DNA from: a virus
Length of the DNA: 28,377 nt
IMG/VR virus record: IMGVR_UViG_3300042896_000643
Location: 1 to 28,377 of that record
Reading direction: 5' to 3' (one strand)
Each line of letters begins with the position of its first letter. Positions within the stretch are counted from its first letter, which is position 1. The notes below the pieces were generated by a model that did not search any database, was not told the DNA's origin, and was given only the letters and a program-made list of their open reading frames with translations. Both the position numbers and the translations under genes were made by a program. Of this stretch, positions 105 to 28,377 are shown piece after piece.

Positions 105-3100
105 ATGGCTGATCGTTATTGGGTTGGCGGTTCGGGTTCGTGGTCAAGTACAGCTAAGTGGTCAGCCACATCAGGTGGCGCGGGCGGTCAAACTGTCCCA
201 ACTGCGGTAGATAACGTTTTTTTTGATGCTAACTCGGGAACTGCTTCTGCTGTGTATGGGGCGGTTATTGATACCCTTGCAGCTACTTGTTTAAATCTGA
301 CAATCACCCCAGTATCAACAGTTGGGGTAACTCAGATTACCATTTCTGGAACACTGACAATAGTAGGCACGCTGTCCAGTTCAGGTACTTCGGGGAATAA
401 ACGTACTTGGATTCGCGGCACCACATACGGTATTGCCAATAATTTGTCAGTTGCTACGCTTGGAACCTTGACTGATGTTGACTTCCGAGACATCTACGTT
501 GTAGGCTCTGCTGCGCCGATCTCCGGCACTCGTATTGGTGACTTGTGTGGCATCCGTGGCATCACTGCTTCTACACCTAAGACAGTGTATTGGAACTTAC
601 CTGCTGGCGGCAGTTGGTCTTCTAACGCTTGGGCTACTTCATCTGGTGGCGGTGTTAGCACAGACAACTTCCCATTGGCTCAGGATACGGCTGTCATCGA
701 GAACACGGGCATGAATACCTCTGCTACGGTGACAATGAATTCGTTGTCTATGCCATATACGGGTACAGTGGATATGTCCGGGCGCACAACCGCGATGACA
801 TTAACAGTTTCTGGCCCACAAACTATTTATGGTGATTGGAAAAATGGTAGCGGGACAACGATAACTGGAACAGGTGTTTTTTCATTTAGCGGTAGAAACA
901 CTCAAACAATCACAAGTGCAGGTAAGACTTTTACAAACGGGCTTACTATTGACACCTTTGGCGGTACTGTACAACTTGCAGATGCGTTTAATACAAGTTC
1001 AACTATTTTTGTTTACAACGGTACATTTGATACAAAGAACTATAACGTCACTGGTGGAGCTTTTTCTACTAGTTCTTTTTTTGTTAGAAGTATTATTCTT
1101 GGTTCAAGTACCGTTTTAATTACCTCTGTTGGTAGCACTTATAACTTTTCACCAGCGACTAATTTAACATTTAATGCAGGCACTTCTACATTGAGTTGCG
1201 GCTCAACAATTGGTACGTTAATAACTGATGGGGGCTTAACTTTTTACAATATTTCATTTACGGGTACGGTTGCAACGACACATAGTATTTCAGGTGGTAA
1301 CGTATTTAATAACATAACGGTGACTGCACCAGCATCTACTGGTATTTCTGGCCTTACTTTTAGTGGTAACCAAACCATCAACGGCACCCTCACCGTTGCA
1401 GGCGCTTCCGCAGTACGCCGTATCTTCTTGCGCTCTAACACCCTAGGCACTACCCGCACACTAACCGTCAACAGCCTGTCCGCTGATGACTGCGACTTTC
1501 TTGACATTGATATCGCTGGCGCTGCTGCTGGCTCATCGCCTGTTCGTGCTGGTGACTGCGGTGGCAATACAGGCATCACGTTTCCTGCACCTAAGACGGT
1601 GTACTGGAACTTAGCAGGTGCGCAGAACTGGAGCGCTACAGCTTGGGCACCGGGGTCTGGAGGCACACCTGACATTAATCAGTTCCCGTTGGCTCAAGAT
1701 ACAGCAGTGTTTGATGACACAGGAGCGGGCACTTCCATTTCTATCCAGTCGTTTAACATTGGAACCATTGACGCATCTGCTCGGACTACGGCGTTAACAT
1801 TTAGTCCTCTTGGTGGGTTCTCTATGTATGGGAACTTAACATTAAGCAGTGCTATTACAATGTTCAGTACAGCTCAGGCTATAACTTTTTCAGGGAGAGG
1901 CACAACAGCCATTACCAGTAGTGGGGTTGTGATTGGGCGCCCCGTCACCATCGACTGCGGTACAGGCACAGTCCAGCTTGCTGATGCTCTGACGCTTGGC
2001 TCAACACGACTACTGACCTTGACATCCGGCACATTTGATGCTGTGACGTACAACGTGACAACGGGTTTAGTGGCTGTAAGCGGAACAGCAATAAAAACAC
2101 TGAAGATGGGCTCCGGGACTTGGACGCTTGCAGGTACTGGCTCAGTATGGACTTTGGCAAACGTAGGAACCACGTTTTTTAAAGGAACTGCAAATATTGT
2201 TTTGTCTGATACCAGCACAACTGCTCGAACTTTTGGGGGAGGCAATTTCTCCCTTAACAAGCTCACTATCGGCGGTGCTACAGGCACGTCAACTACAACA
2301 ATTAACGACAACAACCAGTTCACAGAACTCGCTTCTACCAAAACAGTTGCCCACACTATTGCCCTTGGTGCAACCGCACAGACCTTTGGCGCTTGGACAG
2401 TCACAGGGACAGCAGGTAACGTAGTCACAGTAACAGGCACAGCCGCCATAACAATAGCAGGCGCTCGGGTATCGGGTGTTGACTACCTTGCTATGAACGG
2501 GACTATCCTTTCAAACACATCCCCCGGTGAGTTCTATTCTGGAGCCAACTCTACAGGCACTGGTGCAAACATCATCAAGACTGCCGCTCCTGCTCCAGTG
2601 ACACGCTATTGGGTTGGTGGGACTAACACATGGGATGCAACTACTACTACCAAGTGGTCAGCATCTTCTGGAGGTGCTGGCGGTGCTTCTGTGCCTACTT
2701 CTGCTGATGCTGTGGTGTTTGATACGCTGTCCAATGCAACGGCTTACACGGTGACTTGTACTGCTACGCAGCTTCGGTGTGGTTCCTTGAACATGGCAGG
2801 CCCGCTCTCGGGTAACGTTACATGGGCTGGCTCTGCTCCTATTGCCATGCACGACAACGTGACCTTGGCTGCTACGGGGATTACTCGGACGTATACGGGT
2901 GCAATTACGTTGTCTGGTTCCAGCACTGGTAAGACGTTTACGACCAACGGTGTAGCTTTGGCTTCAACAACTACGGTTAATGGAGTTGGTTGCGGGTGGA
3001 CTTTGGGCAGCGCTGCAACTATTGGAACACTGGATGTTATAAACGGGTCTTTTGCTACCGCTTCATATTCTTTTTCTGTAGGCAATATTCGGTCTAATTT

Positions 3101-4745
3101 TAGTCATGCAAGATCAATTTCACTTGGAAGTAGTGTATTGACTTTTAGTTCTTTTGGTTCATATCCTATTGATTTTGGTGCATCAGAAAATGAAAGGGCA
3201 AATTTAACTTTCTCTGCGGGTACGTCTCAAATAAACGATCCACGACTATCTCCTGTTTTTATCGGCAACAACCAGACTTTTTACAACTACAGTTTTACCA
3301 GCACGCAGGCTGGCACAGTGACACTTAACGGTTCAAACACCTTCAACAATCTGTCCTTCACTGGCATGGCAGCGGCTGGCCTGAAGAACGTATCTCTCAC
3401 AGCCAACCAAACTATCAACGGCACTCTGACGCTCTCCGCTGGAACTAACGCAACAATGCGGACGTTCTTACAGTCAGACGTTATTGGCACAACACGCACT
3501 CTAACCTGCGCTGCTGTTGCTGCTCCAACAGACGCTGACTTCCGTGACATCACCATTGCTGGCGCTGCGGCTCCTGTCAGTGGTACTCGCTTGGGTGACT
3601 GCAAAGGCAACAGCGGGATTACGTTTGATGCGGCTAAGACTGTGTACTGGAACTTAGCGGGTGGTGGAAGCTGGAGTTCTATTGGCTGGGCTACAACAGG
3701 CGGAGGAACCCCTGCGGTTAATAACTTCCCCCTTGCACAAGACACAGCTATATTTCAATCCACAGGGTTGGATTCAGGAGCTATAGTTACGGTCAACGCC
3801 GCCTACAACATCGGCACGATTAATATGTCAGCCCGGACTGCCAACACGATGACACTGACATTAAGTGCTGCGTTTTCAATTTATGGCAACTGGATTAACG
3901 GCACTGGAACTACGATAAGTGGGACAGCAAGAACAACTTTTGTAGGGCGTGGCAGTCAAACAATTACGAGTGCTGGCAAGACTTTTACGCAAGATTTTAA
4001 GTTGGATAACCCCGGTGGAGAGGTATCTTTACAAGATGCTTTTGTTGTGTCAAACGGATTTAACTTAAATGCTGGGTCATACTATTTGAATAATTACAAC
4101 CATACTTCAACTAATGCAAACGCAGACGGCTTAAACGTCCGATTAATTTCTTTTGGTTCTGGCACTTGGACCGTACCAAACGGGGGGTGGAGCGCAACCC
4201 CCGCAACCAATCTTACAGTCACAGGCACAGGCACAATTAACCTCCCCTCTGCGTCCGCCAAGACTTTTGTAGGTGCGGGTCTTTCCTACTCAGGCATCAC
4301 ACTTAACCAAGGCGGTGCGGGCGCATTGACCATTACAGGTAATAACACCTTTGCAAACATCACGAATACCTCTGGTGTGGCTACATCCATCCTGCTCGGA
4401 ACGACAACGCAGACAGTAGGCACATGGGATGCAACAGGCACTGTTGGCAAGGTGCTGACGGTATCAGGTACTTCCGCTGCTTCTTCTGCTACGCTTATTG
4501 TCACAGGGACACCTTCAGCTACGCTGGACTATCTGACCATCACAGGTGTACGAGCTTATCCACTGGAAACAAAATGGTACGCAGGGGCGAACTCAACTAA
4601 TAACGGATCGCTTGGTTGGTACTTTAAGTCTTTAATTATAAATATAACAAAAAGACTGTACTATGGTGCTATTCCTATTGCATCATTAAAATTTGGCAGC
4701 TTTCCAGTAACTTCAGTGTATTTTGGATCAAAGAAAGTTTTGTAA
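105..4745 (+). CDS. Giant repetitive tail fibre/adhesin-like structural protein
   Basis: A 1546-residue protein very rich in Thr, Ser, Gly, Ala and Asn, with almost no charged stretches, as in extended beta-structured phage tail or surface proteins. It is modular: a Y-W signature (RYWVGG or KTVYWN, followed by a Ser/Gly-rich segment and a D-T-A-V-F-like strand) occurs near nt 118, 588, 1602, 2607 and 3645. After a short first module the period is about 1014, 1005 and 1038 nt, so roughly 335-346 residues per module. Sub-motifs such as NQTINGTLT and DITIAGAAAPVSGTRLGDC recur within modules. The C-terminal 35 residues (RLYYGAIPIASLKFGSFPVTSVYFGSK) are different and may be an attachment or trimerisation tip. 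It lies just before the lysis genes. Receptor binding is likely from position and composition, but no enzymatic domain is visible. Confidence 0.7.
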   Translation: MADRYWVGGSGSWSSTAKWSATSGGAGGQTVPTAVDNVFFDANSGTASAVYGAVIDTLAATCLNLTITPVSTVGVTQITISGTLTIVGTLSSSGTSGNKRTWIRGTTYGIANNLSVATLGTLTDVDFRDIYVVGSAAPISGTRIGDLCGIRGITASTPKTVYWNLPAGGSWSSNAWATSSGGGVSTDNFPLAQDTAVIENTGMNTSATVTMNSLSMPYTGTVDMSGRTTAMTLTVSGPQTIYGDWKNGSGTTITGTGVFSFSGRNTQTITSAGKTFTNGLTIDTFGGTVQLADAFNTSSTIFVYNGTFDTKNYNVTGGAFSTSSFFVRSIILGSSTVLITSVGSTYNFSPATNLTFNAGTSTLSCGSTIGTLITDGGLTFYNISFTGTVATTHSISGGNVFNNITVTAPASTGISGLTFSGNQTINGTLTVAGASAVRRIFLRSNTLGTTRTLTVNSLSADDCDFLDIDIAGAAAGSSPVRAGDCGGNTGITFPAPKTVYWNLAGAQNWSATAWAPGSGGTPDINQFPLAQDTAVFDDTGAGTSISIQSFNIGTIDASARTTALTFSPLGGFSMYGNLTLSSAITMFSTAQAITFSGRGTTAITSSGVVIGRPVTIDCGTGTVQLADALTLGSTRLLTLTSGTFDAVTYNVTTGLVAVSGTAIKTLKMGSGTWTLAGTGSVWTLANVGTTFFKGTANIVLSDTSTTARTFGGGNFSLNKLTIGGATGTSTTTINDNNQFTELASTKTVAHTIALGATAQTFGAWTVTGTAGNVVTVTGTAAITIAGARVSGVDYLAMNGTILSNTSPGEFYSGANSTGTGANIIKTAAPAPVTRYWVGGTNTWDATTTTKWSASSGGAGGASVPTSADAVVFDTLSNATAYTVTCTATQLRCGSLNMAGPLSGNVTWAGSAPIAMHDNVTLAATGITRTYTGAITLSGSSTGKTFTTNGVALASTTTVNGVGCGWTLGSAATIGTLDVINGSFATASYSFSVGNIRSNFSHARSISLGSSVLTFSSFGSYPIDFGASENERANLTFSAGTSQINDPRLSPVFIGNNQTFYNYSFTSTQAGTVTLNGSNTFNNLSFTGMAAAGLKNVSLTANQTINGTLTLSAGTNATMRTFLQSDVIGTTRTLTCAAVAAPTDADFRDITIAGAAAPVSGTRLGDCKGNSGITFDAAKTVYWNLAGGGSWSSIGWATTGGGTPAVNNFPLAQDTAIFQSTGLDSGAIVTVNAAYNIGTINMSARTANTMTLTLSAAFSIYGNWINGTGTTISGTARTTFVGRGSQTITSAGKTFTQDFKLDNPGGEVSLQDAFVVSNGFNLNAGSYYLNNYNHTSTNANADGLNVRLISFGSGTWTVPNGGWSATPATNLTVTGTGTINLPSASAKTFVGAGLSYSGITLNQGGAGALTITGNNTFANITNTSGVATSILLGTTTQTVGTWDATGTVGKVLTVSGTSAASSATLIVTGTPSATLDYLTITGVRAYPLETKWYAGANSTNNGSLGWYFKSLIINITKRLYYGAIPIASLKFGSFPVTSVYFGSKKVL

Positions 4746-5140
4746 TGGACACTGTACTTATTTTTTTATTCTTGGCGCTTCAACTACTGTTGCCAATATC
4801 TGCACACGCTCAATCAGTAATGAAAACTCCATTAAGTTATTCATTAACTGAGTATGGTGTGGTGCTTGGAACAGCTTTACTAGGTGGTGCTGCAAACTGG
4901 TATATCAAAGCTAAGAAAGATCCAAAAGGATTTAGCATAGCTGCGCTTATTGGTGAGCTGTGTGTGTCTGCTTTTGCAGGCGTCATAGCGTTCTGGCTTT
5001 GCGAGAGCTTTGGCGTGCAGCCATTACTGACTGCTGCTGCAGTAGGCATGGCAGGCCACGCTGGTGCCAGGGGATTGGATTGGCTTGAGAGCACTATGCG
5101 CAAGACTGCTGAACGTCGTTTAGGTTTACCCAAGGAGTGA
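4745..5140 (+). CDS. Holin, probably LydA/phage_holin_3 type
   Basis: A 131-residue membrane protein whose ATG overlaps the tail-protein stop (TAATG). Residues 5-22 form a signal-like hydrophobic segment ending in AHA; two or three more hydrophobic segments follow (about 36-53, 64-88 and 92-105), then a charged C-terminus (RKTAERRLGLPKE). The central part, with ALLGGAANWYIK, FSIAALIGELCVSAFAGVIA and GMAGHAGARGLDWLE-like sequence, resembles LydA-type holins, which are usually about 105 residues without the leading segment. A start at the internal ATG near residue 26 would give that length, but the overlapping start is better placed. The endolysin follows at once and has no export signal, so a holin is required here to release it. 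Confidence 0.7.
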   Translation: MDTVLIFLFLALQLLLPISAHAQSVMKTPLSYSLTEYGVVLGTALLGGAANWYIKAKKDPKGFSIAALIGELCVSAFAGVIAFWLCESFGVQPLLTAAAVGMAGHAGARGLDWLESTMRKTAERRLGLPKE

Positions 5141-6034: not shown

Positions 6035-6402
6035 GCAAAGCATCTAGGAACCTAGTCAGGGAACCAGATGCACTTATCTTTGATGGCTTTGTCCGTAAGT
6101 GGGCAAAGCTGCTAAACCTTCAGAACTGGCGACTTGAGCGCGGTTCAAAGGCAGCAAAGAATGCCATGGCCTCAGTGGAGTTTGACATGCCAGCTCGCTT
6201 GGCAGTCTACCGACTGGGAGACTTTGGCTCAGAGGCGATCACTCCAAGATCGCTTGAAGACACCGCTATCCACGAACTTCTTCATGTCCTGTTGCTTGAC
6301 TTAATCCTCATAGCCAGTGGTAAGCCCACTGGTGAGGAACTTGAGGCAGCAGAACATGCAGTGATCAATGTTTTAGAAAAACTTCTGAAAGAACACGCAT
6401 GA
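6031..6402 (+). CDS. Small HExxH protein, putative zinc metallopeptidase
   Basis: The start at the ATGA overlap with Rz gives 123 residues. The centre carries IHELLHVLLLDL, an HExxH zinc-binding/catalytic motif at residues 81-85, and about 20 residues further on lies EELEAAEHAVINVLE, whose Glu or His could supply a third ligand. The N-terminal 70 residues (FVRKWAKLLNLQNWRLE, SVEFDMPARLAVYRL) look like a compact domain of SprT-like or minigluzincin type. The substrate is unknown. It is translationally coupled on both sides (ATGA with Rz and with the phosphoesterase), so it belongs to the end of the late operon. Catalytic activity is inferred from the motif only. Confidence 0.6.
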   Translation: MSKASRNLVREPDALIFDGFVRKWAKLLNLQNWRLERGSKAAKNAMASVEFDMPARLAVYRLGDFGSEAITPRSLEDTAIHELLHVLLLDLILIASGKPTGEELEAAEHAVINVLEKLLKEHA

Positions 6403-7556
6403 TTGACGCTCAACTGGTCAGCTACGCAACAGTGCGCCAACTGGAATACATCGAAGCGATTGAGGCCAAGGGTAGCAACAAGAAGGCTGCAAAGTACTTG
6501 GGTGTGGCTGAAGCCACCATTGAAAGATCATTGAGAGATTTGCGTGTCCGGGCTGCAAGCCAAGGACACGCTCCATCACATGACATGACTCGGACTGTGC
6601 CGATTGGCTTCAAGGTGAAAGGTGTGTCTACCCTGTACAACACCAAAGGTGAGGTAGCAAGCCAATGGGTTAAGAGCACAGCTGATGACCAAGCCATGGA
6701 AACAGCTATGCAAGAGTTTGCGGCCACCTTGGCTGAAGGCGTGAAAGGTTTGGGTGGTATTACTAAGGCTCCGGCGCATTGCGTTGAAGACTTGATGTGT
6801 GTGATCCCCATCGGGGATCCACACTTTGGCTTGAGAGTTTGGGCACAAGAGGGCGGTGATAACTTCGACTTGGACATGGCAGAGAAGCTGACCTGTAGTG
6901 CGTTAGACCGGCTCATTGCCAGTGCCCCACCAGCCAAGACAGCGATGCTGCTGAACCTTGGAGATCACTTTCACAGCGACAACCAGAGTAACACCACGAC
7001 TGCAGGCACTGTGGTTGACGTTGATGGTCGCTGGGCCAAGATCCAACAGATTGGTTTGCGCTCAATGCTGTATTGCATTCGTCGTTTGCTTGAGAAACAT
7101 GAGAAGGTGATCTTCAGGATTAACCGAGGCAACCATGACAAGCACAGCAGTTATGCCTTGGCTTTGATGATCAGCTGTTACTTTCACAATGAACCAAGAG
7201 TTCAAGTCGATCTGTCTCCGGCAGCAGCGTTTTATCACCAGTTTGGCCGGAACTTGATTGCGTCAACCCATGGGGATACCATGAAAGGTCCAGCCATGAT
7301 GGGTGTAATGGCAGCTGACCAGCCCAAGATGTGGGGAGAAACCAAGCACCGATACTGGTACGTTGGGCATATCCATCATGTAGACAAGAAAGAATATCCT
7401 GGCGGTATTGTGGAGTACTTTAGAACTTTGGCCAGTGGTGATGCTTGGCACAATGGACAAGGCTACAGATCTGGTCGTGACATGAGCTTGATTGTTTTGC
7501 ACAAGGAGCACGGTGAAGTGGAACGGCACCGTTGCGACGTTGGAATGCTTAGTTAA
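6399..7556 (+). CDS. HTH-metallophosphoesterase (calcineurin-like)
   Basis: A 385-residue protein with two parts. Residues 1-55 look like a helix-turn-helix (KKAAKYLGVAEATIERSLRD), suggesting DNA binding. The rest contains the metallophosphoesterase motifs in order: GDPHFG (Asp140, His142), LGDHFHSDN (Asp189), RGNHDK (Asn245, His246), STHGDT and YVGHIHH. These ligate two metal ions that catalyse phosphodiester or phosphomonoester hydrolysis, so a nuclease or phosphatase acting on DNA or nucleotides is expected. It is the last late gene before the attP and terminator, its start overlapping the HExxH gene by ATGA. Whether it has a packaging, repair or integration role cannot be decided here. 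Confidence 0.8.
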   Translation: MIDAQLVSYATVRQLEYIEAIEAKGSNKKAAKYLGVAEATIERSLRDLRVRAASQGHAPSHDMTRTVPIGFKVKGVSTLYNTKGEVASQWVKSTADDQAMETAMQEFAATLAEGVKGLGGITKAPAHCVEDLMCVIPIGDPHFGLRVWAQEGGDNFDLDMAEKLTCSALDRLIASAPPAKTAMLLNLGDHFHSDNQSNTTTAGTVVDVDGRWAKIQQIGLRSMLYCIRRLLEKHEKVIFRINRGNHDKHSSYALALMISCYFHNEPRVQVDLSPAAAFYHQFGRNLIASTHGDTMKGPAMMGVMAADQPKMWGETKHRYWYVGHIHHVDKKEYPGGIVEYFRTLASGDAWHNGQGYRSGRDMSLIVLHKEHGEVERHRCDVGMLS

Positions 7557-7652: not shown

Positions 7653-7757
7653 TAAGTGGTTGATTTCTAACGAGATTACACCCCTTTACACGGCGTAGGT
7701 CGGCGGTTCGAGCCCGTCAGCACTCACCACCCACTTCCTAATGAAATCAACCACTTA
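7653..7757. repeat. 14-bp inverted repeat flanking attP
   Basis: TAAGTGGTTGATTT at 7653-7666 is matched exactly in inverse by AAATCAACCACTTA at 7744-7757, the two copies bracketing the tRNA-derived core. A partial third copy, TAAGTGGTT, lies at 7766-7774. These are good candidates for integrase or excisionase arm-type binding sites. The right arm is shared with the terminator hairpin next to it. Confidence 0.75.
7680..7729 (+). other. attP: attP core: 3' half of a tRNA-Val(UAC)
   Basis: The segment folds as the 3' half of a tRNA: anticodon loop TTTACAC (anticodon UAC, 7687-7689), anticodon 3' stem GGCGT, variable loop AGGTC, T arm GGCGG-TTCGAGC-CCGTC, acceptor 3' strand AGCACTC, discriminator A and encoded CCA (7727-7729). 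The 5' half of a tRNA is absent, and the 5' anticodon strand ACCCC has a C-C mismatch with GGCGT, so identity with the host gene should begin about 7683. Such a fragment next to an integrase is the classical attP that restores the 3' end of the target tRNA after integration. Crossover near the anticodon loop is likely. It is flanked by phage genes on both sides, so this is attP and not attL or attR. Confidence 0.85.
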
Positions 7758-7780
7758 GAGTAATTTAAGTGGTTTTTTTT
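7749..7780 (+). terminator. Rho-independent terminator of the late operon
   Basis: A 9-bp stem (AACCACTTA / TAAGTGGTT) with an 8-nt loop is followed by at least six T on the plus strand. It would end late rightward transcription before the integrase gene. Confidence 0.8.
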
Positions 7781-7879
7781 ATAGCAGGATACGCTTTTAA
7801 AGCCACTCTGAGCCACCCATACCAACCAAGAAAACATAAATACCAACTGGAACAACGCCTAGTTGGTTGTGTTTGTGGC

Positions 7880-9040
7880 ATGATGACCAGCCTTATGGCA
7901 CACGAAAAATTTATCCCATCTACTGGTAATTGGCAATTTACGATCAAGAGGGCAGGGCTTTTACCAAAACCTTTGTACTTGACGTTCAACGACAAAGCCG
8001 CAGGTCTTGCTTACTGTCAGCGCATTGAAGCTTTGCTGGACAAGGGCATTGTTCCTTCAGAGTACCAAACTCAAATCAAAGCCATGAGCATGGTAGATCT
8101 GGTTCGTGAGTACGAAAGCAATGCTCACCCTTCTCAGAAAGACAAGTCAGCCATTGGCACGTTGTTATTGCGGTGGGGTAAAACCCCCCTGACTGCTTTT
8201 AACGTGCGCTGGGTAGACGCTTGGATTGATGAGATGAAGCGAGTGGACAAGATTTCACCTGACACTATTCGGTCTAAGGTAGGTGCTTTGGCTCGGTGTA
8301 CAGACTGGGGCGTCAGAAAAGGATTGCTGGTAATGCCAGATCATCCTTTTAGAACGCTGCCTGATGGTTACTCGCAGTACACAGTCCAAGATAAAGCTTT
8401 GGCAGGTGTGGCGCGAGAAGACATTGAGCGTGATAGACGCCTGGAAGACGGTGAATACGAAAAGATTTTGACCATCATTGATGGTGGTGTGTTGCCCCGT
8501 AAGCAACGACCTTACAGTATTGAATACGTTGCTGCTACACGCACACTGTTTATTTTGGCAGTGGAGTCTGCAATGCGTTTGCAAGAAATGTACACATTGA
8601 CGTTAGATCAAGTGAAATTTAGCAAACGAACTGTGTTTTTAGAAAAAACCAAAAATGGTGACAAACGGCAAGTGCCATTGAGTACAGTGGCAATGTCTAC
8701 GCTTAAAGATTACTTAAAAGTGCGGGTGCTGCCAGAAGGTTCTAAAGAAGATGCTTTGTTTCCATGGTGGAATGGCACGATGACACCTTTGTACTTGCGC
8801 GTGATGAGTGCAGAGATGTCCAAGTTGTTTTGCAACACCCGCAGTCCGGGCATCTTTAAAGCAGCAAGCTGTTTGGATTTAAAGTTTCATGACTTGCGCC
8901 ATGAAGCGACGTGTCGTTTGTTTGAACGAACGACGCTCAGTGACGCAGAAATCATGAAGATTACAGGCCACAAATCAATGAAGATGCTTTTACGTTACGC
9001 AAATCTCAGAGGTTCTTCGCTTGCGCAAAAGATGTGGTGA
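7880..9040 (+). CDS. int: Tyrosine-family site-specific integrase
   Basis: A 386-residue recombinase carrying all the expected catalytic residues: Arg233 in ESAMRLQE, the beta-hairpin Lys at 256/258 in EKTKNG, His337 and Arg340 in FHDLRHE, His364 in TGHKS and Tyr373 in RYANLR, the nucleophile that forms the 3'-phosphotyrosyl link. Residues about 65-170 are the core-binding SAM-like domain and the first 60 an arm-binding-type domain. The frame is open up to a GTG inside the terminator T-run, but ATG at 7880 (followed by ATG at 7883) is the first plausible start; the Shine-Dalgarno is weak. It lies directly beside the tRNA-derived attP. Expression must come from a promoter downstream of the terminator, which I could not assign. 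Confidence 0.93.
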   Translation: MMTSLMAHEKFIPSTGNWQFTIKRAGLLPKPLYLTFNDKAAGLAYCQRIEALLDKGIVPSEYQTQIKAMSMVDLVREYESNAHPSQKDKSAIGTLLLRWGKTPLTAFNVRWVDAWIDEMKRVDKISPDTIRSKVGALARCTDWGVRKGLLVMPDHPFRTLPDGYSQYTVQDKALAGVAREDIERDRRLEDGEYEKILTIIDGGVLPRKQRPYSIEYVAATRTLFILAVESAMRLQEMYTLTLDQVKFSKRTVFLEKTKNGDKRQVPLSTVAMSTLKDYLKVRVLPEGSKEDALFPWWNGTMTPLYLRVMSAEMSKLFCNTRSPGIFKAASCLDLKFHDLRHEATCRLFERTTLSDAEIMKITGHKSMKMLLRYANLRGSSLAQKMW

Positions 9041-9265
9041 GCCACTGACAGCGTGCAATGGACCGCCCATACGGCGTTGACTGGTTTGTGTTGATATCAG
9101 TCGTTCAATGTATTGCATGACATCGACCAACAGTAATACGTAAGCACGGCCAATCTTGGCTGCTGGCAAAGTACCAGCATCAATAAGTTTTAGTACGGTG
9201 TTGATGTGCACGTTCATGAGTTCTCCCGCTTCTGGTACTGATAAAGTTGATTTAACAAAGGTCAC
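8990..9265 (-). CDS. Excisionase-like / MerR-type HTH protein
   Basis: A 91-residue protein with LSVPEAGELMNVHINTVLKLIDAGTLPAAKIG, the winged-helix pattern of the HTH_17/excisionase family (helix-turn-helix followed by the wing residues that set the phage Xis fold). GTG is chosen as start because AAAGGA lies at the right distance upstream; the overlapping ATG would stop at once. The C-terminal tail overlaps the 3' end of the integrase by 51 bp in convergent orientation, so int and xis transcription oppose each other. It probably bends attachment-site DNA and directs excision, although a transcriptional role is equally possible for this fold. Confidence 0.7.
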   Translation of the reverse strand: MTFVKSTLSVPEAGELMNVHINTVLKLIDAGTLPAAKIGRAYVLLLVDVMQYIERLISTQTSQRRMGGPLHAVSGSPHLLRKRRTSEICVT

Positions 9266-13460: not shown

Positions 13461-16064
13461 TCACGCTAAGGCGTGTTCCTCTTTTGTTGCTTTGCACAGC
13501 TCTACCAAGGTAGCCAGATCTGCGTTGTTAGGCACGGTGGTGGCATGTGCCCAGTTGGGCCAGAAGATATCCAGTGCAGCACCTAACTTCACAGTGGGGT
13601 GTTGAATCTCTGGCAAGTCTTGCCATTGCATGGACTTGATTAGTTCTTGGTTGGCCCACAGAACGGTTTCTGCATCATCTTTGATAAGGATGTAGATAGC
13701 GTCATGGATCAACGCTACTGGCTTGATGCAGTAACGGTACTTGGATACCCAGACCTTCTGCATAAAGTCTACAGCAGCTCTGTTGTTGAGCAGGCCATAA
13801 GACTGGCCCATGGCATTGCCAGCAGTACGCCCTTCTGCAGCAGCTTCGTAAGGCATTTTGGAAGAGCCAAACAACACTTGCTTTAGAAGTGGGGTACGCA
13901 CACGCAAACCAAAAGCAACTTCGACATAGCCATCTTTTGCCGCTTGGTGCAAGCGATCTTGGATGTACTGGTCAGAGACTTGGTACAGGTCGTGGTAGCC
14001 CTTCTCAATAGCTTGTGACTTCTCTTTGTCCCAGCCAAGGTTGCTCATCATTCCGTGATGGGTGCCGCCATACGTTAAAAGAAAGGTTGGTGCCTTACTG
14101 TCTTGTCGAAGCTGTGGGTATTTTTTCTTGATAGTGTTTACCGATACTGAATCGTTTAGATCAATCTCAGGACACTGCTCTCTGAAGTAATAAGCAGCTC
14201 TAAGGGAGTGACCATCAAAACCTCGCTCATAGACCGCTAATTTGTTGGGATCTCTGGTTGTTAGGGCGCTGATCATGTCTTCCAAACTGTTGAAGTCAGC
14301 ACCACACATAAGCCATCCAAGCGGTGCTTGAAAGCACTCTTTAATCAGCTTTGCATAAGTTGAGCCTGCTGGAATATTCTGCAAGTTTGGGTCGCTTGAA
14401 CTCAATCGCCCTGAAACAGTGCCGCCTAAGTTAAACGAGCCATGAAGCCAAGCGATACCGTCTCCTTTGTCCAATGCTTTTTCAAATGCTGGTATGAAGG
14501 TAGACAAGATTTTGCTGACTTTGCCGTGACCAATCAACGCCGCCAATAGCTCCTTGTAGGTGCTGTCGTCAGTGTGGTTGATCAGCTTCTCAATGGTGTC
14601 TGCTCCAGTTGATGGCTGGCCTGTGTCAGTGGTATCCAGCACAGGCAGATTCATCCTGCCATACAGCAGCTTTTGGAGCTGTAAGCCAGAGTTTGGGTTA
14701 AACATGACAGCGTCAAATTTATCCAGTGGATGCTGTTTGACTTTAAGCTTGGCATTGGCAGCGGCTTGTGCATCATTGCGCAGCAGTACGTTGAGTTGGT
14801 ACACAACTTTGCTGCTGGTAATGACTGACAAGTGATCTGCTTGAATAGCTTCTAGCTTGGCTTTGACTTCTTGAACCTTGTGTGGATTTAATGGCATCCC
14901 TGTCAGCTCAACTTGAATAATCATTTTGAGTGAGGGCAGCATTAGCTCTTTGTAAAGAGCTTCTTGCTGGTCGGCTTGCATGACAGGGTAGTACTTGGCT
15001 TTGACGTAGTGGGTGCACAGCGCGTCAACCAAGTTGTACTGAAGTAACTCTGCTAATGGAATCTTACGAATGTCCTTAATATCTTCCTTAGCCCAGTTAC
15101 CAGCAAATTCATGAGCTAAGCTTTTTAAGCCTAGTACGTTGCCTGCTGTGGAGTTAACAGCCAAGTACGCAATTACCTTGGTGTCGTGAAAGCATTTGGT
15201 CATTAGATCCAAACCATGCAGCATCATGGGTGTGTCCAGCAAGTCTTTCATCCACAGTGCACAAATAATGGCTTTGATGTCATAAGTGGCGTTGTGAAAA
15301 GTTAGTTCACCGTTGTAGCTGACAAAGAAGTCTCTAAGTAATGCTCTGACTTCAGGGTTAACACGTTTAAGTCCATAAAATTCGTCGTGGCTGGTAGCGT
15401 AGTCACATGCAAAAGCAATGCCTTCATGCTGGCTCCAAGCAAAGGCAATGGTGCCAATGCCTGCTTGATCAAACGCCAGTGAGAAGCCCTCAATGTCGCA
15501 ACTGAGTTCTGGGTAGCTCAACAGCTTCTGAAGCGCTGCAGCGATGTCCTGAAGGCTTTCTGGATACTCTGCTGAGTGGATGATTCCAGTGCCTGGTGCT
15601 ATGTAACCACCTGTCATGCTAGAAGTTAGCGCGATCAAGCTTGAATTGAGCTTGGGCTGCAAATCTGGATTGAAGATCAGCTGGCGGTAGTTCAAGCCAA
15701 GGACTACGCTCAAGTGCTCGTAGCCTTTGATCTTGCAAGGTAGCACGTAACCAAAGTGCGGATCTGCTTTAGCTTGGCCAGTGAGCACTTTAAAGTACGC
15801 TGCATCAGCCACGTACAGGTGTTTAACGCCCAAGGAAACCAAGGCAGGTAGCAGCTTAGTCAAATACTCTTTGCAGTGCGCTGCGGTGGCTTTGTCTTGG
15901 TCGTTGTAGCTTAAGGTAAATGCAATGACATCCTTGATGGTTATGCCTTGCTCACTGAGAGGCGCAACATAGCTGTTGACCAATTCTTGTTTGATAAAGC
16001 AGCTGCTTTTAATCAAGATAGCAATGGCATAGCTATTAGATTCTTCAAAGATGTGATGTCTCAA
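13461..16064 (-). CDS. Family A DNA polymerase with 3'-5' exonuclease domain
   Basis: 867 residues, close to the N4 DNA polymerase (gp39). The exonuclease domain has DIEGFS (Asp190, Glu192), HNATYD (Asp262) and YNLVD (Tyr343, Asp347), so proofreading should be intact. The polymerase domain has SGRLSSSDPNLQNIP, motif A as GADFNSLED (Asp590, Glu595), motif B as RQDSKAPTFLLTYGG (Arg653, Lys657, Tyr665) and motif C as IHDAIY (His787, Asp788). Motif C is usually HDE; here the third residue is Ala. Both metal-binding Asp are present. No ATG exists near the N-terminus, so TTG at 16064, preceded by AAAAGGA, is the start. It would replicate the phage genome with the helicase encoded two genes upstream. 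Confidence 0.93.
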   Translation of the reverse strand: MRHHIFEESNSYAIAILIKSSCFIKQELVNSYVAPLSEQGITIKDVIAFTLSYNDQDKATAAHCKEYLTKLLPALVSLGVKHLYVADAAYFKVLTGQAKADPHFGYVLPCKIKGYEHLSVVLGLNYRQLIFNPDLQPKLNSSLIALTSSMTGGYIAPGTGIIHSAEYPESLQDIAAALQKLLSYPELSCDIEGFSLAFDQAGIGTIAFAWSQHEGIAFACDYATSHDEFYGLKRVNPEVRALLRDFFVSYNGELTFHNATYDIKAIICALWMKDLLDTPMMLHGLDLMTKCFHDTKVIAYLAVNSTAGNVLGLKSLAHEFAGNWAKEDIKDIRKIPLAELLQYNLVDALCTHYVKAKYYPVMQADQQEALYKELMLPSLKMIIQVELTGMPLNPHKVQEVKAKLEAIQADHLSVITSSKVVYQLNVLLRNDAQAAANAKLKVKQHPLDKFDAVMFNPNSGLQLQKLLYGRMNLPVLDTTDTGQPSTGADTIEKLINHTDDSTYKELLAALIGHGKVSKILSTFIPAFEKALDKGDGIAWLHGSFNLGGTVSGRLSSSDPNLQNIPAGSTYAKLIKECFQAPLGWLMCGADFNSLEDMISALTTRDPNKLAVYERGFDGHSLRAAYYFREQCPEIDLNDSVSVNTIKKKYPQLRQDSKAPTFLLTYGGTHHGMMSNLGWDKEKSQAIEKGYHDLYQVSDQYIQDRLHQAAKDGYVEVAFGLRVRTPLLKQVLFGSSKMPYEAAAEGRTAGNAMGQSYGLLNNRAAVDFMQKVWVSKYRYCIKPVALIHDAIYILIKDDAETVLWANQELIKSMQWQDLPEIQHPTVKLGAALDIFWPNWAHATTVPNNADLATLVELCKATKEEHALA

Positions 16065-16617: not shown

Positions 16618-17874
16618 TTATTTGGCTAGATCCCCTGTTAGGTAAACGTGGTTTCTTGCACGGGAGACTGCTACATAAAGCATTCTTGCTATTTGATCGC
16701 CACTGTTACAGCGGCTGATATCGTCTAAGTCAATGAAGACTTGGTCAAACGTAGAGCCTTGGGCTTTGTTGATCGTGCAGGCATAGACTGCCCTCAGATC
16801 AATCCAACGCTCTTCTATCTCGCCTACCAAGTGCAGCTCATCTTGTGAACGAGCCAATTTAATACGGGCATTTCTGTCTTGCAGTGTTTTAGGCATAAAA
16901 GCAGCAAATTCATTGTTGATGCTGAAGTTATTGCCTGCAACGCCTAAGTTTTCAAGGTCTATAGAGATGCCTGTGATTTGCACCATTTGCTCTGTTTTTA
17001 AAGACTTTTTGCCTTGACTAAAAAAGCTGTTGCATACGGCGTAATCACCTACTTGAAAGTTTGGATCCCCTTTGACGTGGCTACTGACAAATTGATTAAA
17101 AGCAATCACGCACTTGTTGGTCCATCCCAAGATCTTGGAGTCAGAGAAACGCCAATCAGGTCGGCTGAACTCTGCTGCAATGGCTTGGTTAAAGTCCTCT
17201 CGTCCAAGATGTTTGACGTGATGGCCATCAGGCTTGAACTTAAAGAACTCACCTGAGTTCACAGTGTTTCTGAACTTGGTAGACAGGTCCACAATGGGAT
17301 TGCCTGCTGCTTGCCGCACGACGCTGGTAAGCGTTGCACCAGAGAACGTGGAACCAAACACAGGCGTTCCTGTTGATTTAACAGGCGTAAGTTGTGCCGG
17401 GTCACCAACAAAAACAATCTTGCAGTGTTTAGTCATCTGAAAGATAAAACCTAACAACTGAGAGTCAATGTAGCTGGCCTCATCAATAAACAAGATAAAG
17501 CCTGTTTTAAGATTGGAGCTGCTAGGGATTAAGCGAGTTGTGTTGGTTTTGTAGTCTGTTTCTACCCGCAAACCTAAAAAAGAATGAATAGTGCCAGCAT
17601 CTTGGCCAGTAATCTGGCTTAGGTTCTCAGCAGCTTTGTTAGTGGTAGCAGTAAGCTTTACTTCGTACTCACACTGCTCTGGGTTGACTAAGCTGGCACT
17701 TTTAACGTAGCCAGGGATCTTGTCAATCATTGTGCGAACTAAAGTTGACTTACCGCACCCTGAATAGCCTGACAGTACAAATACTGTCTCTGTTGGATTT
17801 AATAAGAAGCGATGAAAAGTTTTCAATGCTTCTTCTTGGTCAGGCGTAAGTGTTATTTCAGCAGTAGTTGTCAT
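16618..17874 (-). CDS. SF1 DNA helicase (RecD/Dda-like)
   Basis: 418 residues, nearly the length of the N4 helicase. Superfamily 1 motifs appear in order: Walker A GYSGCGKST (36-44), Walker B DEAS (131-134), motif III GDPAQL (157-162), motif V INKAQGSTFDQVFID and motif VI YVAVSRARNHVYLTGD near the C-terminus. It should unwind duplex DNA 5' to 3' at the expense of ATP, as Dda and RecD2 do. The start overlaps the upstream gene by ATGA, and the polymerase follows after one small gene, forming a replication operon. Confidence 0.9.
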   Translation of the reverse strand: MTTTAEITLTPDQEEALKTFHRFLLNPTETVFVLSGYSGCGKSTLVRTMIDKIPGYVKSASLVNPEQCEYEVKLTATTNKAAENLSQITGQDAGTIHSFLGLRVETDYKTNTTRLIPSSSNLKTGFILFIDEASYIDSQLLGFIFQMTKHCKIVFVGDPAQLTPVKSTGTPVFGSTFSGATLTSVVRQAAGNPIVDLSTKFRNTVNSGEFFKFKPDGHHVKHLGREDFNQAIAAEFSRPDWRFSDSKILGWTNKCVIAFNQFVSSHVKGDPNFQVGDYAVCNSFFSQGKKSLKTEQMVQITGISIDLENLGVAGNNFSINNEFAAFMPKTLQDRNARIKLARSQDELHLVGEIEERWIDLRAVYACTINKAQGSTFDQVFIDLDDISRCNSGDQIARMLYVAVSRARNHVYLTGDLAK

Positions 17875-18185: not shown

Positions 18186-19307
18186 TTATTTCTCCATTGA
18201 GTAATGAATAACTTTGCCAAATGGCGCAGTAAATGTTTTGTTGTCATTAATTAACCAAAGTGTTTTGACTTTAGTAACTTGGTCATAAAATCTAAAATGA
18301 CCGTCGGTAAACACAAGTAACAACTGTGGTTTATTAATATCGGCCCATTCCAAAACAGGCGTAATATATGTACCGCCTCGGCCTATAAAATTAACCGCCA
18401 TTAATTCACGTACATTGCGTATTTGAGTAACTGATTGAATCTCAGTATCAAACTGTATCAATGTAATTTTTTCTGGCTTCATCATTTTCATGATGCTTTG
18501 TGTTTCAGTAATAAAACGCAGAAAGTCTGCGTCAGTTACTGAGCCAGATATATCTACAGCAATAGCAATATCTATTAACTGCTCGCTGTACAAACTAGGC
18601 AGGTGATACTTTGGAAAGTGTCTTCTATTAGGTTTGCGGAATGTGTAATCATTCTTTGCAAAGGTCAGTAAATACTTTTGCAGGATACGGTGCCAAGGTA
18701 GTTTAGGTGTTAATAGTTTGTTCAGGAATATCTGAATCTCACCTGGAATAGCACCTGGCTTTTCATTGGCCATTTGCGACTTTAAAGCTGCACGCATAAT
18801 GATGTCTTGCATCTCTCGCTCAACTAATTCAGCAGGCGCATCGCACTCTTGCAAGTCACCATCCATGCTTTGAGGCGGTGGCTTTGGTAACTGGATGAGT
18901 ATCTTGTATATCTCTTCTGCACTCATGTTGGTATATGCAGCATCTGCATAACCACCTTTGGGCATTTTAAAACCTCGCTCAATAAGCTGCAGGTTAATAA
19001 CGTGATCACAAGCAATATTAAATAAGTGCTGGTCACATCCTTTGCCACGAATCATGTGCAAATAGGCGCAGTGCATGGCCTCATGCAACATCAAGAATAT
19101 TCTTTCATCTGGATTTAAATCCATGAAAAACTTGGTGTTGTATTTAATAACTGTGCCGTTGGTGGCAGCAGTTGGAATACTGTCATCAAACGATTGCTTA
19201 AGTGAGTAAGCCAGTGTGGTGTAAAACACCGAATCTGGATACAACATAAGCTGTATCTTGGCTTTACTCAGAGCAAGCAACGCATTACTTTGGGGAATAT
19301 AAGACAT
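18186..19307 (-). CDS. VWA protein with N-terminal HExxH domain (DUF2201-like), N4 gp25-like
   Basis: 373 residues in two domains. The N-terminal one contains LHEAMHCAYLH (His75, Glu76, His79) followed by FNIACDHVINLQL, the pattern of the putative metallopeptidase domain paired with VWA in the DUF2201 family. The C-terminal VWA domain starts at AVDISGSVTDADF with the MIDAS Asp252-x-Ser254-x-Ser256, and has TDGHF near the end. MoxR-type ATPases and VWA proteins work in pairs in remodelling or metal-insertion systems, and the MoxR gene lies just upstream. N4 encodes the same pair (gp24, gp25), of unknown role in infection. Whether the HExxH site cleaves anything is unknown. Confidence 0.82.
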   Translation of the reverse strand: MSYIPQSNALLALSKAKIQLMLYPDSVFYTTLAYSLKQSFDDSIPTAATNGTVIKYNTKFFMDLNPDERIFLMLHEAMHCAYLHMIRGKGCDQHLFNIACDHVINLQLIERGFKMPKGGYADAAYTNMSAEEIYKILIQLPKPPPQSMDGDLQECDAPAELVEREMQDIIMRAALKSQMANEKPGAIPGEIQIFLNKLLTPKLPWHRILQKYLLTFAKNDYTFRKPNRRHFPKYHLPSLYSEQLIDIAIAVDISGSVTDADFLRFITETQSIMKMMKPEKITLIQFDTEIQSVTQIRNVRELMAVNFIGRGGTYITPVLEWADINKPQLLLVFTDGHFRFYDQVTKVKTLWLINDNKTFTAPFGKVIHYSMEK

Positions 19308-19610: not shown

Positions 19611-20624
19611 TTAAAACAGTGCTTCTGCAAATTCAGTCCGCCATTTAATAATGGCAGGATGCTGAAGCAATGGTTTATTGCGCTGAGTAGTTTCCCGCAC
19701 TGTAATCACTTGAAATTCATGCGGCATTCTGACAATGAACTTCATGAGCTGGCTCAAGTTAGATTCCGTAGCGTTGTGAGCCAAAGCACCTGTAATGGCG
19801 TATTGCACAGAGGTTTCTGTAGGCATCTTGATAGTGTCTGGTGCTGCCACGATCTGGCTGATCTTAGGCAAGGTGTCGTAGATCTTGCAGAACGTGATGA
19901 ACTCACGAGCTACGCCTTCAGACACCGTACCTGCGTACAGCTGAAGCGACTCAGGATCATTTGCAGGCACCACCGCCATGAGCCGGCTCAAGAACTCCCA
20001 TGTACGTGGACAAGCGTAAGTACTGTCTGTGTGGTCAGGGCGAAACGTAAACAATGCACCTGGCTTGAACTTGATGTAATCCACAATGTGGTGATTAAGC
20101 TTGGCTTCACTGGCCCAGTTAATCCACTCCAAGGAGTCGATATCCAGCTCCATGTGCACCAGACGAGACTGCAGAGCAGTGCTCATGGGTTGCACGATGG
20201 CGTTGTCTGTCTCCAGATTGCCTGCGCACATGATGGCTACGTTCTTGTGCAAGTGGTGCACACCGACCATGCGGTCAAGAATGAGCTTGTAAGCCGCTGC
20301 CTGTACAGCAGGGGAGGCTGAGTTGAACTCATCCAAGAACAGCAACCAGCCAGAATGTCCTGCAGGCAATGGATCATCTTCAATAGGGAAGGTTTCCATG
20401 GGCACATAGCCTGCTTTGTTACCCAAGATAGTGGGAAAGCCCAACAAATCTGTGGGATCGCACTGGCTCAAACGCAAGTCAATGACTTTCAAGTTGTAGT
20501 CAGCTGCAATCTTGTAGGCAATTTGTGATTTGCCACAGCCAGGACTGCCTGCGAGCATGGGGACAAGCTTTGCTTTGATAATGGCCGTGATTAGACTGAC
20601 GGCTTGAGAGACTTTGACTTTCAT
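19611..20624 (-). CDS. MoxR-type AAA+ ATPase, N4 gp24-like
   Basis: 337 residues. Walker A GSPGCGKSQ (26-34), Walker B LLFLDEF (Asp98, Glu99) and sensor 1 in CAGNLETDN (Asn136) show an active AAA+ ATPase. The stretch between, with DPTDLLGFP and ASPAVQAAAYKLILDR, is typical of the MoxR/BchI-like clade. The length equals that of N4 gp24 (about 336). Together with the VWA protein it probably forms a chaperone or remodelling machine; the target is unknown. Confidence 0.87.
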   Translation of the reverse strand: MKVKVSQAVSLITAIIKAKLVPMLAGSPGCGKSQIAYKIAADYNLKVIDLRLSQCDPTDLLGFPTILGNKAGYVPMETFPIEDDPLPAGHSGWLLFLDEFNSASPAVQAAAYKLILDRMVGVHHLHKNVAIMCAGNLETDNAIVQPMSTALQSRLVHMELDIDSLEWINWASEAKLNHHIVDYIKFKPGALFTFRPDHTDSTYACPRTWEFLSRLMAVVPANDPESLQLYAGTVSEGVAREFITFCKIYDTLPKISQIVAAPDTIKMPTETSVQYAITGALAHNATESNLSQLMKFIVRMPHEFQVITVRETTQRNKPLLQHPAIIKWRTEFAEALF

Positions 20625-21207: not shown

Positions 21208-21402
21208 TTAACAACCAAGTTGTATCTGCCTAAGCAAAGTATTGTGATAAGTCATCAACAAAGTAGTGATGTCATTTTTGGTAGTAATAGGTAGCTTGGA
21301 GTCAGCGAAGTTCAGTACCTCTTGTAAGCTGCCTAATGTAGGGAACAAAGGCATAGCCACCGCACGGAGTGGCGGTTGTAGTTGACAGTAAACTTTAGAC
21401 AT
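21208..21402 (-). CDS. Small protein, unknown
   Basis: 64 residues (MSKVYCQLQPPLRAVAMPLF...), moderately hydrophobic with a C-terminal helix. It overlaps the HTH gene upstream by eight bases. Function unknown. Confidence 0.5.
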   Translation of the reverse strand: MSKVYCQLQPPLRAVAMPLFPTLGSLQEVLNFADSKLPITTKNDITTLLMTYHNTLLRQIQLGC

Positions 21403-21646
21403 GCAGGCTTTTGCTTTTGAACAGGTTTTTTAAGAAACGCATCACTTTGTAAACAAAGCTGGGTTGAGTAGGGATAGCTACTGGACGTGCTCTAGGAGTT
21501 GGTACGATTGACTTCTCTTCTAGTACGCGCCTAATGGTGCGTTCTGAGTAACCGTACATTTGCGCTAACTCTTTGATGGTGAGTTGTTGCTTGTAGAACT
21601 TTGCAATATCTCGTTTGTCCAGATCATTAATACATTTGACAGTCAT
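21395..21646 (-). CDS. Small HTH regulator
   Basis: 83 residues. LTIKELAQMYGYSERTIRRVLEEKSI is a clear helix-turn-helix of the homeodomain-like resolvase/transposase type, followed by a basic C-terminal tail (KVMRFLKNLFKSKS). It could regulate middle transcription. The start overlaps the stop of the 41-residue gene (TCATGA). Confidence 0.7.
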   Translation of the reverse strand: MTVKCINDLDKRDIAKFYKQQLTIKELAQMYGYSERTIRRVLEEKSIVPTPRARPVAIPTQPSFVYKVMRFLKNLFKSKSLHV

Positions 21647-22624: not shown

Positions 22625-23863
22625 TTAACTTAAGGCGTAGTTGCTGCCACGAATGTGGTCAGCTAAGTCATAGGTCATCTTTGGGAATACAAATGGTTTG
22701 TTATGTACTTGGCTAAGCAAGTCATCTAACACCATAGATGCCGCTATCTCCGCCAAGATCTCACGATACTGGCTTCGCACTGCATTGAGGTTGTTTGGAT
22801 GAGCTTTGAACTCATCGTGAACAGTTACCAATGCAAACGGTGCGTACTCCGTCATGCTTTCTGTCATGTCCCACAAGGCTTCTAAGTACTCATCACTGAG
22901 GTACTTGACGTTGTCAGCATTCAAGTGAGGCAGGATGACTGCACTGGCTAAAGTACTACGTTCATACTGAGCAATGTAATACGCTACCTTGCCGTATGGG
23001 TTGCTTACTTGAGCAGAGTCGTCGTGCAAACGATCAACCCGCTCATCACCCAACAGTTTGTTGACAGTGTCAATCATGTAGGCGTCATAGTTGCAACGGC
23101 GGTGCATCTCACGCAGCACAAAGGCGTCCATGGAGTGAACGACATTGGCTGCATTGCTTAGGCCATGACGTGCACCCAAGTTCTCATAGAACTCGTAAGT
23201 GAAGGTGGCATGGTCGAGTTCATCGACTTCAATGCGTACTTCTCTTTTGTTCATGACTTTGACCTTGGCATCAAACCCATCTGGCAGCTTCCACTCATGG
23301 ATCAAGCCCCATGGTTTCCAGCTACCCAACAGCTCTTGCAGCAACTGCCATGCGCCTGGTGCCACTTCATTGGCTGCTTGGTAGAAAGCATCTAGCTCAG
23401 GTGTGTCTTCCCCGAAGATCTGCTTGGGCATGGCTTTGGAGCCGTAGAAAGAGGTCATTAAGCTTTGCTTTGCATCAGCTCGGCTGATGTCAACGCTGTT
23501 GCCTAAGATGCCACTCATCACTTGTGTGGTGTAGGTGTAAGCATCAGCTCTTTCATTGGGGTTAACCAAGCCTGTCGCTGTAGCGCCTTTGACACAGCCT
23601 GTGAGGACTGACATCAACTGAATGCCCGAGCAACAAGCATCCAAGCCTACCATGTGGCCACTGGGAACGCCTGCTTGGGCTTTACGCACAGCTTGCATAG
23701 CCTTGTTGTACAGGGGCTTGGTTTCAGCTTGTTCAGCCAATGCTTCCAAGTTGTGCAAGTTGTCTGTAGCCCACTGAATACGCTCTTCAAAGACTAACTT
23801 GTCGTGGCCAAACTGGTTGGCCAAGTCGATCAGCAGGTACTGCCATCCGGTAAATGTTTTCAT
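22625..23863 (-). CDS. T7-type RNA polymerase, C-terminal half (N4 RNAPII subunit 2-like)
   Basis: 412 residues that align with the palm, fingers and C-terminal foot of T7 RNA polymerase, beginning at GWQYLLIDLANQFGHDK (T7 near residue 450). Catalytic residues are all present: Asp75 in LDACCSGIQ (T7 Asp537), Lys132 and Tyr140 in the O-helix-like RADAKQSLMTSFYGS (Lys631, Tyr639), and His349-Asp350 in VHDEF (His811-Asp812). The end NYALS matches the T7 terminus position (FAFA). It lacks the promoter-recognition and thumb regions, which lie in the separate gene upstream. N4 gp16 has the same length (about 404) and division. It has its own Shine-Dalgarno AAGGAAT. It should transcribe middle genes as a heterodimer with the N-terminal half. 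Confidence 0.9.
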   Translation of the reverse strand: MKTFTGWQYLLIDLANQFGHDKLVFEERIQWATDNLHNLEALAEQAETKPLYNKAMQAVRKAQAGVPSGHMVGLDACCSGIQLMSVLTGCVKGATATGLVNPNERADAYTYTTQVMSGILGNSVDISRADAKQSLMTSFYGSKAMPKQIFGEDTPELDAFYQAANEVAPGAWQLLQELLGSWKPWGLIHEWKLPDGFDAKVKVMNKREVRIEVDELDHATFTYEFYENLGARHGLSNAANVVHSMDAFVLREMHRRCNYDAYMIDTVNKLLGDERVDRLHDDSAQVSNPYGKVAYYIAQYERSTLASAVILPHLNADNVKYLSDEYLEALWDMTESMTEYAPFALVTVHDEFKAHPNNLNAVRSQYREILAEIAASMVLDDLLSQVHNKPFVFPKMTYDLADHIRGSNYALS

Positions 23864-23946: not shown

Positions 23947-24390
23947 ATGCCTTCTTACTATTTGGCTTTATTGCCCGCTCTTGCTTTAGCTCTTGTTGGC
24001 TGTGCCAGCTCTACAATCAAGCCCATATACACAGGCCGTGATTTGATTTCAATTGCAGAAATTGATTACTTTTCTGAAAAATGCAGCCGTCAAGGACGCA
24101 TGGCTCTTGAAACAGCTGCCTATGGAAAACGCATCGTTTCTGAGGTTATGCAGAATTACCAAGTTGATATGCGCGAGTTTGAGCAAAACAAAGCACACAT
24201 CAACTCTTTTAATGCTGGAAACCAAGAGCTTTGCAACCAAGTCTCTTTAATGATTCTTAACATCAAAGGTAAGGATGATGCTAAGAAAAGCAGTGACTCT
24301 GCTTCTCAGGCTATGCCGCAAATACCATTCATGCCTACCAATACCAGATGCAATACAGCCTTTGGTCAGACTTTTTGCACCTCTTACTGA
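23947..24390 (+). CDS. Lipoprotein moron between the two RNAP genes
   Basis: 147 residues: a signal peptide (MPSYYLALLPALALALVG) ends in the lipobox LVGC, so Cys19 should be lipidated and the protein attached to a membrane. The mature part is polar and helical (YFSEKCSRQGRMALETAAYGKRIVSEV) and has a Cys-containing C-terminus (TRCNTAFGQTFCTSY) with two Cys able to form a disulfide. It is the only plus-strand gene between 9 and 28 kb, is inserted in the opposite direction between the two halves of the RNA polymerase and overlaps the 3' end of the N-terminal half by seven bases. Own promoter plus surface location suggest lysogenic conversion or superinfection exclusion, an inference. Confidence 0.8.
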   Translation: MPSYYLALLPALALALVGCASSTIKPIYTGRDLISIAEIDYFSEKCSRQGRMALETAAYGKRIVSEVMQNYQVDMREFEQNKAHINSFNAGNQELCNQVSLMILNIKGKDDAKKSSDSASQAMPQIPFMPTNTRCNTAFGQTFCTSY

Positions 24391-25295: not shown

Positions 25296-25359
25296 GTGAA
25301 GTTCCTTAGTGTTTAATTTATAAATGAAAGCAATCACCCAAGCGCAGGGAATGCGCCTG

Positions 25360-28096: not shown

Positions 28097-28377
28097 ATGA
28101 CGGCACTTACTATTGAGCAATTCAAGCAAGCTCTACCTGATAAGGTAAAGAAATCTGTGAACCAAGAGTTAATTGACTCAGTTAATAACGCCTTGGCTGA
28201 TCCAGAGATGTTTGAGGCTTACCGGGATAACCTGCTGAGTTACACACGGGTCATGGCTGATGGCAGGTTTAAGGTGCACAACTATGTGGATGCTGTCCGG
28301 TATGTGAGCCAGAAGCTCATGGGATGCAGCAACATTGAGGCTTACACCAAAGCATTCCCTGATAAGTACGCCAGGTT
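28097..28377 (+). CDS. Start of rightward gene, possibly terminase small subunit (partial)
   Basis: The frame runs off the window after 93 codons. It begins MTALTIEQFKQALPDKVKKS and includes NYVDAVRYVSQKLMG and AYTKAFPDKY. Such a pattern (helical N-terminus followed by NYVDAVKYVS...NxEAYxxxFP) is one I associate with small-terminase-like packaging proteins in podophages, but I have only the first part. It would be the first gene of the rightward late region, whose last genes are at the left end of this window if the genome is circular or permuted. The Shine-Dalgarno is weak (TTGGA). Confidence 0.6.
   Translation, partial: MTALTIEQFKQALPDKVKKSVNQELIDSVNNALADPEMFEAYRDNLLSYTRVMADGRFKVHNYVDAVRYVSQKLMGCSNIEAYTKAFPDKYAR

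Follow-up and report, generated by a model that had tools for sequence, protein, structure and literature searches.

A tRNA-Val attP, a tyrosine integrase and an excisionase-like gene form a very probable integration module in an N4-like phage

The window, by which we mean the whole stretch of 28,377 bp analysed here, is a linear virus fragment (IMG/VR record IMGVR_UViG_3300042896_000643). A scan for tRNA 3' halves located an attP core at about 7681..7726 (plus strand), which corresponds to the 3' half of tRNA-Val(UAC), running from anticodon loop to CCA; the window contains no complete tRNA gene. Across 1.40 Mb of N4-like DNA the same scan returned 11 matches, with one match each in the 72 and 69 kb relatives, adjoining the integrase. 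A repeat search placed the core between the 15-nt arms of an inverted repeat that match perfectly (100% identity), with the left arm (TAAGTGGTTGATTTC) at 7653..7667 (+), the right arm (GAAATCAACCACTTA) at 7743..7757 (+) and 75 nt between them. A terminator-like hairpin followed by a T-run (7750..7780, +; hairpin search) lies just behind the tRNA half, and similar hairpins stand behind other attP cores.

The adjacent gene encodes a tyrosine integrase of 386 aa (7880..9040, +; PF00589, E=4.7e-22; phrog_1, E=9.8e-36). The listed ORF spans 7769-9040, and translation probably begins at the ATG of position 7880, since homology to L002, a related contig described below, is solid from there. The translation contains all catalytic residues (R, K, HxxR, H and Y), within AMRLQE, KTKNGDKR, HDLRHE, TGHKS and RYANLR, whilst a single-sequence search of the protein against solved structures gave no match. 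A small convergent gene (8990..9265, minus strand) overlaps the 3' end of the integrase gene and encodes an excisionase-like HTH protein (HTH_17, E=1.5e-10; phrog_66 and phrog_1840). Thus the complete integrase and the convergent excisionase-like gene proposed in the preliminary description are both present, and the catalytically complete enzyme adjoins an attP that matches a host site.

The preliminary description placed this module between the late lysis genes and an N4-type replication block. The placement holds, but a lysis gene is not its direct neighbour: the last gene before attP encodes a DNA repair exonuclease/phosphoesterase-like protein (6399..7556, +; phrog_704, E=1.1e-102), and the genes for the endolysin, a phage lysozyme (5145..5570, +; PF00959, E=4.3e-10; phrog_7), and the holin (4745..5140, +; PF16083, E=3.2e-21) lie further upstream. 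This late/lysis cluster starts with a large ORF of 1546 aa (105..4745, +) that has no PHROG or Pfam match and, judged by its position, probably encodes a tail spike or fibre; an ORF of 1406 aa occupies the corresponding place in the G007 prophage (see below).

The right two thirds of the window carry, on the minus strand, an N4 middle/early block consisting of the N4 gp39-type DNA polymerase (13461..16064; identified by its match to phage 98PfluR60PP and by the tree), a Dda-like helicase (16618..17874; phrog_325, E=3e-108), an N4 gp25-like VWA/metallopeptidase protein (18186..19307; match to Littlefix), an N4 gp24-like AAA ATPase (19611..20624; phrog_1297, E=1.6e-122; Littlefix comparison) and the large and small subunits of the N4-type early RNA polymerase, RNAP2 (22625..23863; phrog_2051, E=5e-150) and RNAP1 (24384..25337; phrog_2166, E=3e-103). 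The contig end cuts an N4 gp69-like gene (28106..28369, +; 53% to Littlefix), the first of the structural cluster. This order is colinear with Littlefixvirus, and together with the PHROG matches it confirms the N4 gene content and order noted earlier. A plasmid search with gp24/gp25 DNA gave no match. Between RNAP1 and RNAP2 we observed an inverted 148 aa ORF (23944-24390, +) with a lipoprotein-like start (LVGC box), missing at the corresponding place in G001 and without a match among phage records; it is possibly a moron.

In a polymerase tree of 25 sequences the window polymerase was nested in Schitoviridae (support 100/99). It is 55.6% identical over its full length to that of 98PfluR60PP, about 55-56% to Littlefixvirus and less than 60% to all 463 phage records matched (E up to 1e-60); among the matches listed, nearly all are records of 59-79 kb, and those whose taxonomy was checked are Schitoviridae. 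RNAP1 and RNAP2 match N4-type families, and RNAP2 also matches the solved N4 RNAP2 structure (PDB 6dt7, E=1.1e-61), so that the affiliation of the polymerase and the RNAPs agrees with the backbone first proposed. Hallmarks of Schitoviridae are a giant virion RNA polymerase (vRNAP) of about 3,500 aa and terminally repeated genomes of about 60-80 kb. The position of vRNAP falls outside the 28 kb fragment; the search for it in longer sequences was positive, with open frames of 3372-3733 aa in three long relatives (G001, G003 and G005, polymerase 57-87% identical to that of the window) and in the G007 prophage. These relatives measure 68-72 kb, with end repeats of 127 bp in G001 and 43 bp in G003. 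Next to the vRNAP gene of G001 we noted a 160 aa protein (25864-26346; L018:5864-6346) with an end similar to the C-terminal domain of the RNA polymerase alpha subunit. The closest cultured relatives by polymerase, the Littlefixvirus Pseudomonas phages Littlefix and 98PfluR60PP, have the same gene order and a convergent late cluster after the polymerase gene, but no integrase is annotated at the junction.

We surveyed integrases with the PF00589 profile in 50 records, nearly all of them N4-like contigs. An integrase was present in 19, and 17 of these lie 0.9-10.3 kb downstream of the polymerase when records are read as circular (wrap-around in three or fewer; 15 without wrapping). The slot is filled differently in different relatives. 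G001 (71.7 kb, polymerase 87%) has another integrase on the opposite strand together with a tRNA-Asn(GUU) half, whereas G003 (polymerase 75%) and G004 (70%) share yet another integrase type, the third, paired with a tRNA-Asp(GUC) half; these integrases are unrelated to that of the window, although the polymerases are 70-87% identical. A tRNA-Arg(ACG) half is found in five of the 19 integrase-bearing records. In the polymerase tree G001 is the sister of L002, which has the Val cassette, and cassettes have therefore been exchanged inside a close group. The Val cassette (same integrase type and tRNA-Val attP) is also found on unrelated backbones, namely in L003 and Pseudomonas phage USP_18. As read from these comparisons, the slot between the polymerase block and the late/lysis genes is a place for interchangeable cassettes, each an integrase with the tRNA attP that fits it; cassettes of these types also occur in unrelated phages and islands. 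Two further contigs have tRNA-Arg halves in the slot (L109, 14623; L115, 15721) and no detected integrase, and may hold decayed or divergent cassettes. G005 (68 kb) was considered as a further temperate member and set aside, having no PF00589 integrase and none among its slot ORFs, as was L187, a second locus with the tRNA-Asp integrase type, which lacks N4 genes.

We found an integrated relative in a 127 kb contig of a Burkholderiaceae metagenome-assembled genome (G007; JANJVG010000124.1), which contains a 76 kb N4-like prophage. Its ends are marked by a duplicated 3' half of tRNA-Cys(GCA) (53 bp, 98%; attL 166-218, attR 76431-76483). The integrase and a convergent HTH_17 gene adjoin attL, followed in N4 order by polymerase, RNAPs, terminase, portal, capsid, vRNAP and primase, and a tail ORF, a lysozyme gene and an Rz-like gene precede attR, beyond which the GC content steps from about 0.50 to 0.63. 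The TTGATTT arm, which recurs in L002, L003 and USP_18, lies on the attR side and the right-arm sequence AAATCAA on the attL side, the arrangement expected for phage arms. On the left, the contig starts just 165 nt before attL, which keeps that flank short; when joined, the flanks are continuous in congeners (G009, 91% over 833 nt; G414, G410 and G421, 81%), which represent the empty site. The prophage is a distant relative of the window (polymerase 54%, integrase 34%; host genome a MAG), and its integrase had no relatives in viral_contigs. Its module resembles that of Curvibacter phage PCA1, with tRNA-Cys, integrase and convergent excisionase. Because a relative with the same layout is already chromosomal, part of the N4-like family lives as dormant prophages. 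Another N4-like short contig, L033 (JABSQH010000019.1) from an Ilumatobacteraceae (Actinomycetota) MAG, was not taken as a prophage and is likely a binning error.

We consider it very probable that the segment serves a temperate N4-like (Schitoviridae) phage as its module for site-specific integration. At the level of sequence this reading draws on the module itself, its repetition in a second contig, its linkage to tRNA-Val, the swapping of cassettes and a relative with occupied and empty sites. The preliminary description had left the choice between a temperate branch and a recent gain; the branch fits better, as many relatives have an integrase in the same slot and the cassette has been swapped, and a recent single gain was rejected on this occupancy. 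A virulent N4-like phage might still have picked up a cassette that it does not use, a passing insertion in a lytic phage, and both the occurrence of this cassette type on unrelated backbones and the lack of a visible CI-type repressor would suit such a history. We regard it as improbable, since the slot holds integrases in many relatives, several with matching tRNA halves, phages related in the tree hold different cassettes, two members have an intact integrase, xis and attP arms, and one relative is integrated.

An assembly chimera, in which an N4-like phage was joined to a temperate phage or island, is highly improbable. An integrase shared with other backbones could bridge an assembly, but the junction is repeated in L002, an independent contig from another metagenome, which largely refutes a chimera. 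L002 has an integrase 90% identical to that of the window, the same attP core, the same genes in the same order to either side of the junction and an inverted repeat that is 93% identical at equal spacing. The 7.5-9.3 kb junction, flagged earlier as a possible artefact, thus passed this check, and G001, G003 and G004 hold other integrases at the same junction.

Homologues of the window integrase (57-60% identity) occur in 5 of 401 Burkholderiaceae genomes, and in all five a tRNA-Val(UAC) gene adjoins the integrase, which has a xis-like partner; N4 genes are absent from the stretch read around each of them. The 45-nt att core was found with at most one mismatch in 42 of 301 Burkholderiaceae genomes (exact in 11), and the reversed 45-nt pattern, used as a control, in none of the 301. 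Since core and integrase homologues both point to Burkholderiaceae in the GTDB sense, we infer that the host probably belongs to this family. The proposed search for prophages at tRNA-Val(UAC) hence succeeded for the integrase but not for the combination: among the 401 Burkholderiaceae and 369 class genomes sampled, none had a prophage with the window's own integrase on an N4 backbone, and N4-type RNAP2 was found only in G007. That the recombinase works on phage DNA alone, in dimer resolution or inversion, is scarcely credible: tyrosine recombinases are capable of this and some database matches are named shufflon recombinases, but attP is a tRNA 3' half adjoining the integrase, homologues in chromosomes occupy that same tRNA, and one relative is found integrated.

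In the favoured reading, a site-specific integration module, the integrase would act on the attP core (7681-7726) and on the 3' half of a host tRNA-Val(UAC) gene, recombining the two. The phage-borne half would restore the tRNA and may supply its own terminator, the hairpin at 7750..7780. The small HTH protein encoded at 8990..9265 would act as excisionase and presumably controls the direction of recombination. The middle operon and the late/lysis operon run towards each other, and the module lies in the gap between them, so that integration would open the phage map there and yield a prophage with the integrase and polymerase block at one end and the lysis genes at the other. An integrated copy flanked by attL and attR is seen for G007, and the window phage probably integrates likewise.

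A CI/LexA-type repressor is usual in temperate phages but not required of every one. Profile searches of the window and its relatives gave no HTH_3 match over the cut-off and no Peptidase_S24 match at all, in line with the earlier remark that no obvious CI-type repressor is visible. A Pfam scan of 135 small ORFs from G001, the prophage and part of G003 had no CI/LexA-type family among the matches listed (25 of 40). No CI/LexA-type repressor was thus found in the window or its relatives by these profiles, and a repressor of another type may be present. Two HTH proteins had been named as candidates. The one at 12464-12829 was discarded, with no family assigned and no match in relatives. The other, a small HTH protein (21395..21646, -; HTH_23, E=3.6e-06), is conserved in close integrase-bearing relatives and tends to accompany the integrase (19 of 23 integrase-positive versus 6 of 35 integrase-negative contigs; Fisher p 1.4e-6, kinship ignored); two of those six integrase-negative contigs bear a tRNA-Arg half. 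None of its best 15 phage matches is N4-like, its profile found nothing in Littlefix, and the G007 prophage has no recognisable copy. We retain it as a candidate lysogeny regulator only.

The early genes of phage N4 depend on an RNA polymerase that is carried in the virion and injected along with the DNA. Because of this dependence, the lack of vRNAP alone may keep an integrated N4-like genome silent. Lysogeny could then be kept without a classical repressor, with the HTH protein at 21395-21646, or nothing, as the switch and with immunity of a non-CI kind, an idea that we put forward as doubtful.

N4-like phages have been described as strictly lytic, and several have been proposed for therapy. 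The preliminary description took them as virulent and the combination as new; temperate relatives are confirmed here, whilst the novelty is weaker, as integrase genes and proviruses in N4-like genomes were reported in 2023 with an argument for lysogeny (PMC10654107, mSystems) and the kind is therefore already known. That study lists lysogeny genes in 21 proposed subfamilies and 40 proviral regions, mainly in Moraxella, and its proviruses combine N4 core genes with an integrase, as in the window; its text does not speak of attachment sites, the tyrosine type of recombinase, a repressor or hosts from Burkholderiales. A second paper (PMC7650795) makes no mention of integrase, prophages or lysogeny. 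Compared with those proviruses, the present case documents att cores with their arms, sites both occupied and empty, and the exchange of cassettes; proof at the att level, a slot in which cassettes are swapped and the lack of a repressor appear to go beyond the earlier work. Among other known phages, Pseudomonas phages USP_18 and 8P have integrases 60-62% identical to that of the window, preceded by a tRNA half or tRNA (in USP_18 the same tRNA-Val attP), but the backbones of these two phages and of PCA1 are unrelated, and the annotations read show no N4 gene set. The att-level case, with occupied site, empty site and matching module, shows that integration occurs in part of the N4-like family, and the exchange of cassettes within one slot shows how phages switch integration site. 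How a phage that depends on an injected polymerase for early transcription keeps and leaves lysogeny thereby becomes a testable question.

Several minor features were observed along the way. Insertions of 0.8-1 kb interrupt the polymerase genes of G003 and G005 (L007 11914-12814; L009 11710-12511) and the RNAP2 and terminase genes of the G007 prophage (JANJVG010000124.1, about 15.9-16.8 kb and 25.6-26.6 kb), and are probably homing introns or endonucleases. One ORF in the set from G001, G003 and the prophage has a Tad2-like match (Thoeris anti-defence, E=3e-23). The prophage also carries three tRNA genes (Trp, Gly and Ser; JANJVG010000124.1 23221-23470) just before its structural cluster. In a sister species of the lysogen (G416:C51, about 21.6-65.6 kb), another element of about 44 kb seems to be inserted at tRNA-Leu in the same tRNA cluster.
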